A stretch of DNA of 64,000 nt from Anaerolineaceae bacterium. Lineage in GTDB: Bacteria; Chloroflexota; Anaerolineae; Aggregatilineales; Phototrophicaceae. A program made the translations under genes and the position numbers. Each line of letters begins with the position of its first letter. The first letter of the stretch is position 1. The notes beneath the pieces are model-generated. The model was not told the DNA's origin and searched no databases. It saw nothing but the letters and a program-made list of their open reading frames with translations. The stretch spans positions 1 to 64,000 of the forward strand of contig REDR01000048.1 of the NCBI GenBank assembly GCA_007693385.1. Reading direction: 5' to 3'. Shown here piece by piece: positions 55,133-63,782 of this stretch.

Positions 55133-55921
55133 ATGAAAGTAATCTCTTTGTTGAATGAAAAAGGCGGCGTCGGCAAGACGACCATCGCCATGCATCTGGC
55201 GGCGGGGCTGGCGGTTCGCGGTTATCGCACCCTGTTGATCGACGCTGACGCGCAAGCCAACGCCACCGCCGGACTCGGCCTGCCGGAAGCGCCCGGATTT
55301 TATGATTTGCTGGTGCGTCAAGCCAACTGGAACGATCTGTTGCGCGTGCTTCCGGCGGAGATGTACGAGCCGCCGGACACCCCCGCTAAAGGACTTCTGG
55401 CGATGTTGCCGGGCAACGGCGAGACACAGCTGATCGCGCAGAAGATCGACGACGCCTACGCCATCTATGACCGGCTGGCGGAACTGGAAGACAGTATCGA
55501 CGTGGTGGTGTTCGACACATCGCCGACGCCCTCGCTTTTGCACGGCGCGATCTATCTCGCGACGGACGCGATCCTGTACCCGACGCTGTGCGAGACGTTC
55601 AGCCTGCAAGGGTTGATGAAAACCATGAAGCATCATGAGAGCTTCGCGGAGAATCGCAAAGCGCAGACCGGACGCATGATCCACACGCTGGGCATCGTGC
55701 CGACGATGTACCGCGCCAAGACGGTTGAACACAGCGAGAACCTGAACGAACTACGCGGGCGCTTCGGCAATCAGGTATGGGACCCGCTATCGTTACGCAT
55801 CACATGGAGCGAAGCCAACACGCTCCGCCGTCCGGTGTTCAGCGTCGCGCCGAACAGTCAGGCCGCGCATGAAGCATGGGGCGCGGTAGACCGCGCCATC
55901 CGGGAGATCAGCTATGTCTAA
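55133..55921 (+). CDS. parA: ParA-family partition ATPase
   Basis: 262 residues. The deviant Walker A motif NEKGGVGKTTIAMHLAAGLA (8-27) and LLIDADAQANATAGLGLP are standard for small (type Ib / Soj-like) ParA proteins. VVVFDTSPTPSLLHGA is motif A-prime/B. There is no N-terminal HTH. It binds DNA as an ATP dimer and positions ParB-bound DNA. It overlaps parB by eight bases. Chromosomal soj genes normally lie near oriC with rnpA/gidB; none of these is here, and a prim-pol replication gene lies just beyond parB, so a plasmid-type origin is plausible. Confidence 0.92.
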   Translation: MKVISLLNEKGGVGKTTIAMHLAAGLAVRGYRTLLIDADAQANATAGLGLPEAPGFYDLLVRQANWNDLLRVLPAEMYEPPDTPAKGLLAMLPGNGETQLIAQKIDDAYAIYDRLAELEDSIDVVVFDTSPTPSLLHGAIYLATDAILYPTLCETFSLQGLMKTMKHHESFAENRKAQTGRMIHTLGIVPTMYRAKTVEHSENLNELRGRFGNQVWDPLSLRITWSEANTLRRPVFSVAPNSQAAHEAWGAVDRAIREISYV

Positions 55922-57149
55922 GCGCGAGCAACGCCGTCAGCAAGGGGCGGCATGGACTGACCAGACCACCGACGAAGGGCGCAATGCGTCGTCGTCTTTG
56001 CGCGATGTGACCGCGCAGGGCTACGGCCTGAACATCGCGCCGAATCAGCAACGCATCATCGCCAAGCCGGTGTCCATCTTCGACATTCAGCCCGATCTCG
56101 CCCAGCCGCGCCGCACCATTCCCTCCAGCATCCGCACCGCATGGGACGGCGATCCAAAAGGCGTCAAAGCGCTGTTCATGGTGTGGTGGGGCGAAGTCCA
56201 GCGCGAGCGCGGCGAAGCGGCGGGCAAGGACGAACTGCCGTTTGATCTGGGCGCGTATCTGGAAAGCGGGCAGACCGAACGCACAGCCGACGAAGACGCC
56301 ACGCACGAAGCATCCGGGCCGCTAGAGCGTAGCCTGCTACAGATCACCATGCTAGCGGCCAGCATCCGCCGCGACGGGCTGATTAATCCGGTGACGGTTG
56401 AGCAGGGCAAAAACAGCCGCTACCGGCTGGAAACCGGCGAGCGTCGCTGGCTGGCCTATCACCTGCTCCATGCGTGGTTTGACGGCCACGACGGGCGGCC
56501 TGATGAGCGCGAAGAATGGGATACGATTCCGGCGCGGGTGGTGGAAAAATTCGACGTGTGGCGGCAAGCCAGCGAGAACAACGCCCGCGACGATCTCAAC
56601 GGCATCGGCAAGGCGCGGCAGTTCGCGGTGTTGATGATGGACTTGCGCGGCATGGAAAACTTTCGCCCGTTTTCCGCGTTTGAAAACGAGCAGGATTATT
56701 ACGCACAGGTCGCGGAGATGGCGTCGCCGTATGGCTCGCGGGAGCAGTTGCTCAACGCGCTGGGCATCAACAGCCCGTCGGTTTTAACGCGCCTGCGCCA
56801 CTTCCTACGCCTGCCGCATGAGATATGGCGCGGCGCGGATGATTACAATCTGTCGGAGGAAATATTGGAAGAACTTTACGGCATCGCCAGACAGGATGTC
56901 GATAAGGCGATCCAGCGCTTCCGCGAGATTATTCATGTAAAGAACGTTCGGATTCAGTCCGGCCAGACCAAGCGCAAAGCGCCACCCACCGAGCCCGGCA
57001 CGCGCCGTCATTTCACGCTGGTCTTGCGGATGATGAAGCAAGCTGGCAAGGGCAAAAAACAGTCCAACCAGCAGGCGCTCAAGACGCTGGCGGAACTGCG
57101 CGACTGGGTGGATGAACAGGAGCGAATCATCCGCAAGCTAGACTCCTGA
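55914..57149 (+). CDS. parB: ParB-like DNA-binding partition protein
   Basis: 411 residues, longer than the typical 280-300. The ParB/Srx CTPase-type motif ETGERRWLAYHLL (GERR at 175-178) and ENNARDDLNGIGKARQFAVL are present, then an HTH region around YGSREQLLNALGINSPSVLTRLRHFL, read in pieces. Its N-terminal segment has an unusual insertion (about 75-135) between VSIFDIQPDLAQPRR and the GERR box, and a basic linker near 340-360 (QTKRKAPP). Overlap with parA and GGGAGAT before the ATG show coupled translation. It would bind parS-type sites; nearby CACTTATCAC repeats are candidates. Confidence 0.88.
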   Translation: MSKREQRRQQGAAWTDQTTDEGRNASSSLRDVTAQGYGLNIAPNQQRIIAKPVSIFDIQPDLAQPRRTIPSSIRTAWDGDPKGVKALFMVWWGEVQRERGEAAGKDELPFDLGAYLESGQTERTADEDATHEASGPLERSLLQITMLAASIRRDGLINPVTVEQGKNSRYRLETGERRWLAYHLLHAWFDGHDGRPDEREEWDTIPARVVEKFDVWRQASENNARDDLNGIGKARQFAVLMMDLRGMENFRPFSAFENEQDYYAQVAEMASPYGSREQLLNALGINSPSVLTRLRHFLRLPHEIWRGADDYNLSEEILEELYGIARQDVDKAIQRFREIIHVKNVRIQSGQTKRKAPPTEPGTRRHFTLVLRMMKQAGKGKKQSNQQALKTLAELRDWVDEQERIIRKLDS

Positions 57150-57341
57150 GCGCCCGCCCTATCGCCGGATTACTCCGTGATAAGTGCCCCGCCCCACCCC
57201 TACCCCATCAGCGCGGATGACCGCCGGATTCACGCCTCCCCCGCCTGAATCTTCGCCTGAATAGCGGGTAGGGCGGGCGGTGGGGTAGGGCAAGCCGGAT
57301 TACTCCGAAAACCACTTATCACTCCCGAAATCACTTATCAC
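57150..57341. repeat. Repeat cluster between parB and prim-pol gene (possible centromere or origin)
   Basis: The 10-mer GTGATAAGTG at 57177-57186 occurs as its reverse complement CACTTATCAC at 57313-57322 and 57332-57341 (the last within the end of the replication gene). GGATTACTCCG occurs twice (about 57168 and 57298), both next to these 10-mers. CGCCCGCCCTA near 57150 is complementary to TAGGGCGGGCG near 57270, and CCCTACCCCA to TGGGGTAGGG, so the middle can fold into a long hairpin. The arrangement suits a ParB-binding site, an iteron-type origin or a two-way terminator. Confidence 0.5.
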
Positions 57342-59460
57342 GATACTTCGCATGTGCCCGCAACCACACCGCCAGATAGCCCGCCGGATTGCGAATCGAG
57401 CGCCCGCCATCGACTGATTTTTGCAACGAGCGCACCCCCCAATCGACCAGCCGCCCGCCATATTTTTCGACCCACTTTTGCGCCGTCCGGCGCGTGACCG
57501 CGTGCGCCGGATCAAGCGCCCGCAATGCGCTGTACAGTCGTTCGGCCATGCCATCATTTGCCGACTGCGGCGCGGCCTCCGGCGCCGGTTGCGGTGTGGA
57601 CGGGCGGAACGTTCGCGGCGGGATGACTCCACCGCGCCATGCGCCATCGAGCGCGGGTGCGGGCGCGTTCTGATCGCGTGCGACGGATGGCGTCGGTGCA
57701 GAATTGACGGGCGGCGCGGCGATGTGGTGGAACAGCGATTGCGGCGGGTGTGGCGTCGCCGGAATCGGCGCGGGCGGCATCGCGGCGGGCTGGTCGGCGA
57801 TCCGGTAATGGTTGGGCTGTTGCGACAGCAACGACACGCGGCGTCCGGCGCGTAATTCACGGCGGGCGATCTCACGGCGCGGCGGGTAACGCTTGCCCTT
57901 TTCCGTCAGCAGAAATTGACCCCATATCGGCGTATCAGACAAGGCGGCATTCACCCCGCGCTGACTCAATGGTGTCTCGTGGTAGCACGGCGTCGCCATC
58001 ACCCCGCACGCACGTTCATAGCGGCGGCAGGTGGTCGGGCTGACGTTCAGCCGTCGCGCTTGCCAGTGGCGGGCGTACTGTCCGGGCGCACGGCGGATCA
58101 ATGCGGTGTGCAGGGCGGCGCGGTACGCGGCGGGCGTGCGTAGGTCGTCGGGCGCGATAGTATCCGCGCCGCGCAAGGGCACGCCGAGCGCATCGCATAG
58201 CGCGGTGATCGACGGCATCACGAAGCACAGATGCGGCCTGCCGCGTCGATTTTTTACCGGCTCTGCTACCCTACCAAACAGGCATTGTTTGGTCTCATCC
58301 GCGTAGCGCTTAACAGCGTTAGCATATTTAGAGGGTGGGGTGCGGGGAGGGAGAGATTTCAGCAAGCGCACCGCCGCGTAGATCGCATTGCGTCCGACGC
58401 CGTGCGGCGCGAGCAGGCGGTAAACTTCCGGGGCGTTGAGCAGGCGTCCGGCTTCCACACCGAGCAGAAGCAAGCCGTCCAACATGCGGGCGACATTCGA
58501 CCAGCCCCGCGCCAGCAAAGACTCGCGGGCGCTGTTGGGCAGTTGCTCCGGTTCGGTTCGCGGCTTGGCGGGACGCGGACGCGGCGCTTGACTGAACGCG
58601 CTACGGATAGTGCGTTCGGCTTCGGCGTGGCGGCGGGTGGCGGCTTCCGGCGGGTGATCGCCATTCGGCGGTTGCGCCACATGATCGGGCGTCAGCGCGT
58701 CGCAAACTTGAAACTCACCGTAGCCAACATCGCGCCCATAGCGGGCACAGGTGAACAGCGCGTTGTTGCGTCCGATGCGCGGCGCGAGATGCTGATACAG
58801 CCGTCGCAGATCGCCCAATGATACCGAATCGCGGTTGAGTAGGTCAGGAGTCAGGTCTACGGGCGCTGAATCCGGCGCTGTGGCGCGATTTCCGGCGTTT
58901 TCTGGCGTTTTGCGCCTGATTGTACTGATAAAGCGCGAAATGCGGCTTAAATCGGCTTCTGTGAGTTTTTTGGGCGGCGCACCGTTGACAACCGCCCACA
59001 CCTTGCCATTGATGCGCGTATTGGGCGCGACGACATATTGACCATCGCCGCGCAATTCGATGCCGAGCGTCTGCTGGCCGCGCACCGTCAGATCGCCGAT
59101 GGCGTAGTAGTAGTGCGGCAGGCCGCGATTGCCGGAGCGCACCGTGAAGGTATCGAGCAGATCGGGGAAGGCGTCGCGGAAGGCGTCGCCGATTTCGTCG
59201 CTGTCGATGTCTACCACGACCACGCCGGAAGCGCGGCCTAACACCACGCCATACGCGCTGAAATAGTCGTGATTGAGCCATTGGTCATATTCGGCGGGGG
59301 TGGGCTGGCGGCGCATGTAAACCGCCCATGAGCGCAACGCGGGCGCTTTCTCCGCGCCGCGCATCAAACCACCGTTGAGCGGTATCAGTGACCATCCGAG
59401 CGCCTGCAACGCCGCTAGATTCTGCCGGATGTCGGTGGTTGTGTGTAGCAGATTAGACAT
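57331..59460 (-). CDS. Prim-pol replication protein (bifunctional primase/polymerase, PriCT)
   Basis: 709 residues. The N-terminal archaeo-eukaryotic prim-pol domain (about 15-170) shows Asp84 and Asp86 (VVVDIDSDE), His116 (GLPHYYYA) and IELRGDGQYVVAPN. A PriCT-1-like region follows (about 225-300: RIGRNNALFTCARYGRDVG, EAERTIRSAF). Then come a winged-helix-like stretch (RLLNAPEVYRLLAPHGVGRN), a central wHTH region and a Pro/Ala-rich linker before a final HTH. There is no helicase domain, which many plasmid prim-pol proteins have. Such proteins start replication of plasmids and phages. It converges on parAB, a common plasmid layout. Confidence 0.82.
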   Translation of the reverse strand: MSNLLHTTTDIRQNLAALQALGWSLIPLNGGLMRGAEKAPALRSWAVYMRRQPTPAEYDQWLNHDYFSAYGVVLGRASGVVVVDIDSDEIGDAFRDAFPDLLDTFTVRSGNRGLPHYYYAIGDLTVRGQQTLGIELRGDGQYVVAPNTRINGKVWAVVNGAPPKKLTEADLSRISRFISTIRRKTPENAGNRATAPDSAPVDLTPDLLNRDSVSLGDLRRLYQHLAPRIGRNNALFTCARYGRDVGYGEFQVCDALTPDHVAQPPNGDHPPEAATRRHAEAERTIRSAFSQAPRPRPAKPRTEPEQLPNSARESLLARGWSNVARMLDGLLLLGVEAGRLLNAPEVYRLLAPHGVGRNAIYAAVRLLKSLPPRTPPSKYANAVKRYADETKQCLFGRVAEPVKNRRGRPHLCFVMPSITALCDALGVPLRGADTIAPDDLRTPAAYRAALHTALIRRAPGQYARHWQARRLNVSPTTCRRYERACGVMATPCYHETPLSQRGVNAALSDTPIWGQFLLTEKGKRYPPRREIARRELRAGRRVSLLSQQPNHYRIADQPAAMPPAPIPATPHPPQSLFHHIAAPPVNSAPTPSVARDQNAPAPALDGAWRGGVIPPRTFRPSTPQPAPEAAPQSANDGMAERLYSALRALDPAHAVTRRTAQKWVEKYGGRLVDWGVRSLQKSVDGGRSIRNPAGYLAVWLRAHAKYRDK

Positions 59461-59493
59461 CGTTATCCCGCCTTTCTACACGGGAAAAACGTG

Positions 59494-59522
59494 TTGCCAA
59501 ACAGCCTTTTGAGCGCTATACT
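59494..59522 (+). promoter_or_regulatory. Strong sigma70-type promoter
   Basis: TTGCCA (59494-59499) and TATACT (59517-59522) each match five of six consensus bases and are separated by exactly 17 bases. It points away from the prim-pol gene into the candidate RNA. Confidence 0.7.
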
Positions 59523-59528
59523 CGTAGT

Positions 59529-59765
59529 AGTAATTTGTGTGCGTTAAACCTCACTTTCAGGGTGCGGTAATACACACAAACGTTCAAAACAACGTAGTTT
59601 GGATGTCCGGCGTCCGAGCCGCTAAAACCGGTTCGGATAACCGCAATCACTTTCGATAGTTATCAGCTAAAGCTGTCTCTCGTGCGTGGGTTCGCGATGC
59701 CGGATGCCCGCCCGTAATTCTGTTTGGCGGCGAAACCACACGAATTACGGGCTTTGCTTTTTTTA
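59529..59765 (+). ncRNA. Candidate structured small RNA, about 235 bases
   Basis: The unit starts about seven bases after a near-consensus promoter and ends at a strong terminator. Within it, TTTGTGTG (59534-59541) pairs with CACACAAA (59573-59580), enclosing a smaller CAC/GTG stem. GTCCGAGCCG (59612-59621) pairs with CGGTTCGGAT (59629-59638) with two G-U pairs and a 7-base loop. ACGTT/AACGT and CAGC/GCTG form further small stems. No open frame with a start site lies inside. It matches no RNA family I can recognise (not tRNA, tmRNA, RNase P or SRP RNA). Confidence 0.55.
59710..59765 (+). terminator. Rho-independent terminator of the candidate RNA
   Basis: GCCCGTAATTC (59710-59720) is exactly complementary to GAATTACGGGC (59742-59752), followed by TTTGCTTTTTTTATA. 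Eleven perfect base pairs plus a T-run is a very strong terminator. Confidence 0.85.
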
Positions 59766-60015
59766 TACCCCACACAAGAGTGCAACTGTGGCCAATACTG
59801 ACCGAATTTGTTTGCGATCTGGACTCGCACCAAACGTCAGTCGCTGGCTGTGTTGGTCATCGTTTTTCCGTCATGTCGTCACGTCCTCTAAACAATCATC
59901 TAAAATTACGCTTGTCGGTTATCTCATCGCGGATCGCTGATTGCTCTCAAGCGCCGCGCCGGTAGATTGCATTTATAGTGCATCTATACAGAATGTTAAA
60001 TCTTGTCGCAACCGC

Positions 60016-60066
60016 TAGTCAAAATCGCCATTCTGTGTTATGATCTATGTCTATTCTGACATAGAT
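60016..60066 (+). promoter_or_regulatory. Promoter overlapped by operator-like palindrome
   Basis: TAGTCA (60016-60021) and TATGAT (60039-60044) are 17 bases apart. A perfect inverted repeat, ATCTATGTC (60043-60051) and GACATAGAT (60058-60066), covers the end of the -10 box and the predicted start site, the position of a repressor operator. Confidence 0.5.
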
Positions 60067-60079
60067 TGTTGTGCGATGG

Positions 60080-60113
60080 CGTGCTGGGTAATACAGCACG
60101 TCAATTCTTTTTA
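60080..60113 (+). terminator. Hairpin with T-run, end of a possible very short RNA
   Basis: CGTGCTG (60080-60086) pairs with CAGCACG (60094-60100), followed by TCAATTCTTTTTAT. It lies only about 30 bases after the predicted start of the previous promoter, so the transcript would be about 60 bases. The T-run begins six bases past the stem, which is late for a standard terminator. Confidence 0.45.
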
Positions 60114-62573: not shown

Positions 62574-63782
62574 GTGTCCCAAGATAAACCCAAACAGAAA
62601 CGACGCGGCAAGACACCGTCCAGAAAAGAGGTGTACAGCCCGGAGGAGATGCAGATTCGCAAGGTCGCCTCTGAGGTTGCCAATACGCTGGGCGAAAAAG
62701 ATCGTAAACCGTACGGACAGATTGCGGCATTGGTGCGAATGCGTGGCGAGGACTTCATCCGTGAAGTGCTGGCCGATACGCTACAGATCGAGGCGCAGGG
62801 CGGCATGATGACCGCGAAGGGCGACAGACGGCGCACAATCGGCGGCGTGTTCTTCCGGTTGGCGCGGGAACGCCTGACCCGCAATGAAGGCCTGTTGATT
62901 TTCGCTCGCGGTGACGTGTCGAAACTTAAACGCGCCAAATCTGAAGCGCAATTTCCCGCTTTCACATGGGATGATCGCGCAGAGGTCATCCATAATTTGA
63001 AAAATCAGGAGCAGGGAGAGGTATCGGACGTGAAGATCATCTTGCAAGGACATCCTAAGTCAACGGAACGGCGCGAAAATCTGGTCATCCTGCGTATGCA
63101 ACACGATCTCGACAAAATCCCGAATATGCCGCGAGGTGTACCTGATCCGGGCGATAAAGCGATGCCGTACACGGTGATCGTCAACTCAGAACAATATGAA
63201 ACCGCCGAAGCCGCCATTCAGAAAGACCCCAAAGACGAGCTTCACATCGAAGGGTTTGCGGCGTATGACGCGGAGACATCCGATATTGTGGTGTTTGCGA
63301 CGCGAGCGATCACCCGAAAGATACACAAACAAGAGCGCCGCCGCGAACTCGAAACGATGGTGAAGCAGACGCAAGAGGCGCAACAACGCAAAGAGATCGC
63401 CAAGCAGAAGAGCGACGAGAACCGGCGTAAGCAGTTAGAAGCCAACGCCAAGAAGAAGGAGCAAGCCGCGCCCTCATCAGCAGGCGAAGCAGTCAAGCCG
63501 GAGGGCAAGAACGATGTGCCGTTCGCGCCGGTACGCATGGGCGAGAGCGCCCGCGCCGAACGCACCATCGAAGAATTCAGCGCCGAGCCGCCGCCGCATC
63601 TGGACGCGGAAGCCGCCAAGAAATACGCCGATCTTCTGCGGGCGGAGGCCACATACCGCCAGCGCATCGCCGACATCGAAGCCAAGCCGGAAGATCAGCG
63701 CTTCGGGCTGGAGATGACGCTTAAACTATTGACCAGCATCCAGAAACAGATCAAAGCGCTGGTCGATCAAACCGACGAATAA
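62574..63782 (+). CDS. Protein with PHAX-type RNA-binding domain and coiled coil
   Basis: 402 residues from a GTG start with AGGGGGGAA upstream. Residues about 30-105 match the RNA-binding domain of eukaryotic phosphorylated adapter for RNA export (PHAX): QIEAQGGMMTAKGDRRRTIG then GVFFRLARE lines up with human EIEQNGGLFIMNGSRRRTPG and GVFLNLLKN. Residues about 145-235 form a beta-rich region (VKIILQGHPKS, LHIEGFAAYDAETSDIVVFA) that might be an OB-like fold. Residues 240-300 are a Lys/Glu/Gln-rich coiled coil, then a disordered linker and a final helical hairpin. Such domains are known in some bacteria but have no settled function. It lies just upstream of a candidate structured RNA. Confidence 0.8.
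   Translation: MSQDKPKQKRRGKTPSRKEVYSPEEMQIRKVASEVANTLGEKDRKPYGQIAALVRMRGEDFIREVLADTLQIEAQGGMMTAKGDRRRTIGGVFFRLARERLTRNEGLLIFARGDVSKLKRAKSEAQFPAFTWDDRAEVIHNLKNQEQGEVSDVKIILQGHPKSTERRENLVILRMQHDLDKIPNMPRGVPDPGDKAMPYTVIVNSEQYETAEAAIQKDPKDELHIEGFAAYDAETSDIVVFATRAITRKIHKQERRRELETMVKQTQEAQQRKEIAKQKSDENRRKQLEANAKKKEQAAPSSAGEAVKPEGKNDVPFAPVRMGESARAERTIEEFSAEPPPHLDAEAAKKYADLLRAEATYRQRIADIEAKPEDQRFGLEMTLKLLTSIQKQIKALVDQTDE

Follow-up and report, generated by a model that had tools for sequence, protein, structure and literature searches.

A candidate antisense RNA opposite the leader of a Prim-Pol replication gene in an Anaerolineaceae bacterium

In plasmid R1, the antisense RNA CopA runs out of the rep leader (CopT), pointing away from the rep gene, and provides copy-number feedback, for which it works through a leader peptide. 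Antisense RNA control of a rep gene by way of its leader is documented for pT181, pSK41 and pIP501 (PMC5703833). Here we analyzed a 64,000-nt stretch of contig REDR01000048.1 from an Anaerolineaceae bacterium (hereafter the window), in which a short RNA unit on the + strand adjoins a replication gene on the – strand. This gene, prim-pol (57331–59460, – strand; PF09250, E 1.5e-17), encodes a protein of 709 aa and is the proposed target of the RNA. As in R1 CopA/CopT, the RNA of the window reads out of the rep leader and away from the rep gene, although a leader peptide was not identified here. Judging from sequence, we consider it probable that the RNA is a cis-antisense copy-number regulator of the Prim-Pol replication gene, and one of a family. 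The first-pass annotation of this DNA had guessed at copy-number or replication control, which is now the leading reading; its statement that the RNA is not antisense to prim-pol was not supported by the analysis.

The promoter of the RNA (59494–59522, + strand) has a –35 box TTGCCA (59494–59499), a 17-nt spacer and a –10 box TATACT (59517–59522), i.e., it matches the consensus at 10 of 12 positions, a score reached by only one further site between 57000 and 62000. With the start site placed from the –10 box, the predicted transcript of about 235 nt covers 59530–59766 (+ strand), and its folding energy of –85.5 kcal/mol compares with –66.3 on average for shuffles (z –4.0; none of 200 shuffles equaled it). 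Folding resolves a 5′ hairpin (59534–59580, + strand) with the stem TTTGTGTG/CACACAAA, then a central structured domain (about 59601–59708, + strand) made of a closing stem and inner hairpins, and finally a terminator hairpin (59710–59765, + strand) with an 11-bp stem free of mismatches (59710–59720/59742–59752), a 21-nt loop and the tail TTTGCTTTTTTT. The near-consensus promoter with its 17-base spacer, the two internal hairpins and a transcript of about 235 bases without a reading frame had been described from the first inspection of the sequence, and each is borne out here, the longest ORF within the RNA being 40 codons, not above the average of 46 in shuffles. The terminator had been described as an 11-bp perfect stem followed by a T-run; the stem stands, but the T-run tail is interrupted by GC, and it is because of this broken tail and the 21-nt loop that a simple terminator scan overlooked the terminator of the window. 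The terminator hairpin may possibly also be the recognition loop of the RNA. An Rfam scan of the window RNA, which had been proposed as a check, gave no real match at either gathering or permissive thresholds.

The search for related loci started from the protein, and relatives of prim-pol were found in 46 of 101 genomes, those used in the profile being 31–43% identical to the Prim-Pol of the window. At most prim-pol loci a divergent TTGCNN-17-TAnAnT promoter lies ~20–50 nt from the prim-pol start. Scored with a single matrix (at least 9 bits, within 5–110 nt of the start), a divergent sigma70-like promoter was present at 66% of 44 prim-pol loci from 30 genomes versus 6.8% of 263 control ORFs, i.e., other ORFs of the same loci (Fisher p 1e-17), counts that are not fully independent, as some loci come from related genomes, and in which the uncertain, rule-assigned start codons of some prim-pol genes would if anything lower the divergent-promoter signal. 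Some prim-pol loci had no recognizable divergent promoter (G073, G070 and G016); these loci (L074, L075 and L076) have a strong promoter in sense orientation, either TTGACA-17-TATACA or TTGACG-17-TATACA, ~340 nt upstream of prim-pol. A terminator, defined as a hairpin with a T-run 60–290 nt downstream, followed 29 of the 36 candidate units, where shuffles predict 4.6. The predicted RNAs of the relatives, about 60–290 nt in length, are structured (mean z –3.4, with z below –2 in 23 of 29) and noncoding, with longest ORFs like those of shuffles. A short noncoding RNA with its own promoter and terminator is a mark of antisense-RNA-controlled replicons, and the predicted units at the prim-pol loci are of this kind.

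Among 61 related genomes compared, a convincing DNA homologue of the RNA unit was found only in G003, where it lies directly upstream of the prim-pol gene in divergent orientation, as in the window. The G003 promoter is TTGCCA-17-TATAAT, and the –35 box region (GGAAAAACGTGTTGCCAAA) is identical to that of the window at 19 of 19 nt. Promoter and terminator hairpin are kept and the middle of the unit has diverged, the terminator hairpin being the best-conserved part (79% identity, E 3.8e-6). Across the prim-pol loci, RNA sequence is common only to close relatives. Covariation in one subfamily was set aside as the register of the alignment was unsure. Taken together, the promoter, the fold (z –4.0), the terminator and the recurrence in the family confirm, in sequence terms, the earlier claim of a stand-alone RNA unit beside the replication gene.

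A distance of 33 nt separates the –35 box of the RNA from the start codon of prim-pol. Among prim-pol-sense promoters the best, TTGACT-18-TAACAT (60022–59993, – strand), is weak on its own (9/12 match; p 0.02 by shuffles); it sits past the 3′ end of the RNA, and the predicted leader of about 525 nt spans the whole complement of the RNA, within which no prim-pol-sense promoter above chance was found in the window. Across loci, prim-pol-sense promoters were enriched beyond the RNA end (combined p 0.001), with no such signal within the RNA's complement (p 0.96). In many relatives prim-pol is preceded on its own strand by parA and parB, with the RNA in the gap between parB and prim-pol, and in many the RNA extends into the antisense strand of parB. 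With its best promoters past the end of the RNA, or with parB ahead of it on the same strand, prim-pol is predicted to yield an mRNA that crosses the RNA region, and the RNA would therefore be complementary to the leader of this mRNA. Thus, by predicted promoters and gene order, the RNA is positioned opposite the rep mRNA leader. It had been argued at first that the RNA reads away from prim-pol and so is not antisense to it; this argument fails for the predicted mRNA, and would hold only if the prim-pol mRNA started between the RNA and the gene. A second possible short unit (60016–60103, + strand) overlaps the predicted prim-pol-sense promoter; its features are the promoter-like elements TAGTCA-17-TATGAT with TG before the –10 box, a terminator-like hairpin with a T-run and an inverted repeat of 9 bp (ATCTATGTC/GACATAGAT).

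On the side of the target, a hairpin that holds the prim-pol Shine-Dalgarno sequence (AAAGGCGGG) occupies 59461–59491 (– strand), directly before the ATG at 59460, with a folding energy of –13.1 kcal/mol (z –2.36). A Shine-Dalgarno hairpin immediately 5′ of the prim-pol start codon is present in many loci, including that of G003 (–13.4 kcal/mol, z –4.0), in which the 5′ arm is retained and the 3′ arm differs. In several relatives (G007a, G023a, G071, G080 and G006) the hairpin is followed by a U-run; the hairpin of the window has none, and in this it departs from attenuators of the pT181/pIP501 type. The RNAs also carry copies of the 5′ arm of the hairpin: over 25 loci, the mean longest match between RNA and leader 5′ arm was 6.76, compared to 5.80 for shuffled RNAs (0/300 as high) and 5.70 when loci were swapped (0/20000). 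Examples are GTCACTTGCC in G043, ACCTCTACC in G009 and AAACCACC in G071, as well as CACCCAT in G007a, CACCACC in G023a and AATCGCC in G080. A copy of the 5′ arm in the RNA implies a complementary element in the leader, i.e., the counterpart of the pT181 pre-emptor. No pre-emptor-like copy was found in the window, where the longest match was 5 nt, below its shuffle mean.

We infer that transcription of the RNA uses the opposite strand to that of the prim-pol leader, beginning a short distance 5′ of the prim-pol start codon and running to the RNA's own terminator, and that, as a cis-encoded counter-transcribed RNA, the unit would limit synthesis of the Prim-Pol protein and in this way set the copy number of the replicon. 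Every prim-pol mRNA would contain the full complement of the RNA, because the mRNA is predicted to start beyond the RNA terminator or in parB. Pairing of the RNA with the nascent leader would favor the hairpin in which the Shine-Dalgarno of prim-pol is hidden, and since the concentration of the RNA would be set by copy number, the outcome would be negative feedback. Shine-Dalgarno sequestration as in pSK41 is likelier in the window than attenuation because the hairpin there is not followed by a U-run; in relatives that have the U-run, premature termination of the mRNA, i.e., attenuation, is possible as well. For the direction of the effect we rely on the analogy with known systems, because equilibrium folding of the leader with its RNA-complementary part blocked gave no consistent change in Shine-Dalgarno accessibility.

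Other readings of the unit have to be weighed against antisense control of prim-pol. As the RNA adjoins the rep gene, it or the mRNA opposed to it might chiefly be a replication primer or origin transcript, as in ColE1 or pAMbeta1, so that its position would mark the origin and have no bearing on prim-pol translation. The Synechocystis plasmid pSYSA offers a parallel, where an antisense RNA beside a primase-helicase Rep gene has been suggested to regulate a primer transcript (PMC9978351). The strong terminators, the Shine-Dalgarno hairpin and the copies of it in the RNA, however, favor control of the mRNA, and a Prim-Pol protein could presumably make its own primers; we hold this origin-centered reading to be distinctly unlikely. 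A structured, independently terminated RNA could also act in trans on other targets of the replicon, but among relatives the sequence has changed almost completely while place and promoter are kept, as would suit a cis-antisense partner rather than a conserved trans-acting seed, making this very improbable.

It is equally hard to accept that the RNA itself has no role and that the conserved divergent promoter works through transcriptional interference or by binding a Rep or Par protein. The –35 region is indeed more constant than any other element and borders directly on the ribosome binding region of prim-pol; yet the two boxes have been preserved at a spacing of 17 nt, the units run into terminators, and the RNAs fold with a stability beyond chance. 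We give hardly any credence to the idea that the unit serves a divergent protein gene as leader or promoter. The candidate would be the next sizeable + strand gene downstream, which encodes a PHAX-domain protein and starts at 62574; against this, the unit ends in a terminator, the gene is 2.8 kb off, and in many relatives the RNA enters the antisense strand of parB. The evidence thus argues for the cis-antisense regulator as the preferred reading.

The prim-pol gene belongs to a replicon module with parA (55133–55921, + strand; PF13614) and parB (55914–57149, + strand; PF02195). The parAB pair is convergent with prim-pol in the window and in G003, and parA-parB-primpol clusters were found in relatives. 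Between parB and prim-pol, repeats at 57164–57342 (GTGATAAGTG three times, in either orientation, and GCCGGATTACTCCG twice) are candidates for parS or origin iterons. In an Anaerolineaceae metagenome-assembled genome, contigs G007:C6 (49,823 bp) and G007:C13 (485,746 bp) each have one strong prim-pol match; both contigs are circular, since their 99-nt ends are identical, and each, with its prim-pol module, is a plasmid. The 97-kb contig of the window showed no end overlap in the circularity check and carries ordinary metabolic genes; the contig could represent a large plasmid, part of a chromid or an integrated module. A scan of a genome collection with the Prim-Pol of the window yielded no hit; with the G007 protein it led to the Anaerolineaceae metagenome-assembled genome. 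A tblastn search of prim-pol against a plasmid collection gave no match, and comparison with viral contigs returned distant primases only, mostly at about 26% identity.

The PHAX domain is known from eukaryotic snRNA export. In the window, the gene at 62574–63782 (+ strand) encodes a 402-aa protein with this RNA-binding domain (PF10258, E 1.2e-16). The domain was found in 28 of 61 relatives versus 0 of 14 control genomes, and four genomes (the window, G003, G006 and G008) have a PHAX-domain gene at a distance of up to about 3 kb from the parAB/prim-pol module; the domain is also present in genomes that have no such module. One could imagine an Anaerolineae Prim-Pol plasmid family with antisense RNAs inside the parAB-rep operon and a plasmid-borne PHAX-domain protein as RNA chaperone, like Rop or FinO, a proposal that we regard as unlikely.

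Antisense control of plasmid replication is already known as a kind of regulation; the family, the replication gene and the phylum in which it is proposed here appear undescribed in searchable papers, a set that leaves out most subscription journals. In the literature searched, no copy-number control was described for the phylum, Chloroflexota. If antisense control of prim-pol holds true, it would give this phylum a testable copy-number control and extend antisense replication control to Prim-Pol replication genes. The dozens of diverged RNA/leader pairs would then lend themselves to a study of specificity, and the combination of counter-transcribed RNA, prim-pol and parAB would be a signature by which plasmids for Anaerolineae could be recognized and built.

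Set beside the documented systems, the locus resembles pT181 RNAI/repC and pIP501 RNAIII/repR in its short predicted antisense RNA opposite the rep mRNA leader, in the hairpin that holds the ribosome binding site directly before the rep start and, in several relatives, in the pre-emptor complementary to the 5′ arm of this hairpin. It differs from them in that the replication gene is a Prim-Pol gene instead of Rep_trans or RepR, that the phylum is another, that the window has neither a pre-emptor nor a U-run after the hairpin, and that the RNA matches no Rfam family. As with asRNA1/CyRepA1 of the large plasmid pSYSA in Synechocystis, the predicted antisense RNA adjoins a gene for a Rep protein with a primase domain (PMC9978351); asRNA1, however, opposes a small upstream ORF (ssr7036), of which no equivalent was seen here, and has been compared with ColE1 RNAI, with RNase E in a central role (PMC9978351). 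pSK41 RNAI/rep, of the RepA_N type, also has an antisense RNA to the rep leader, and there an SD-sequestering hairpin is the proposed output (PMC5703833). Its RNAI is about 83 nt long, compared to about 235 nt here, and the rep genes are unrelated. Of the systems compared, pSK41 RNAI/rep is the closest fit to the predicted anatomy of the window.
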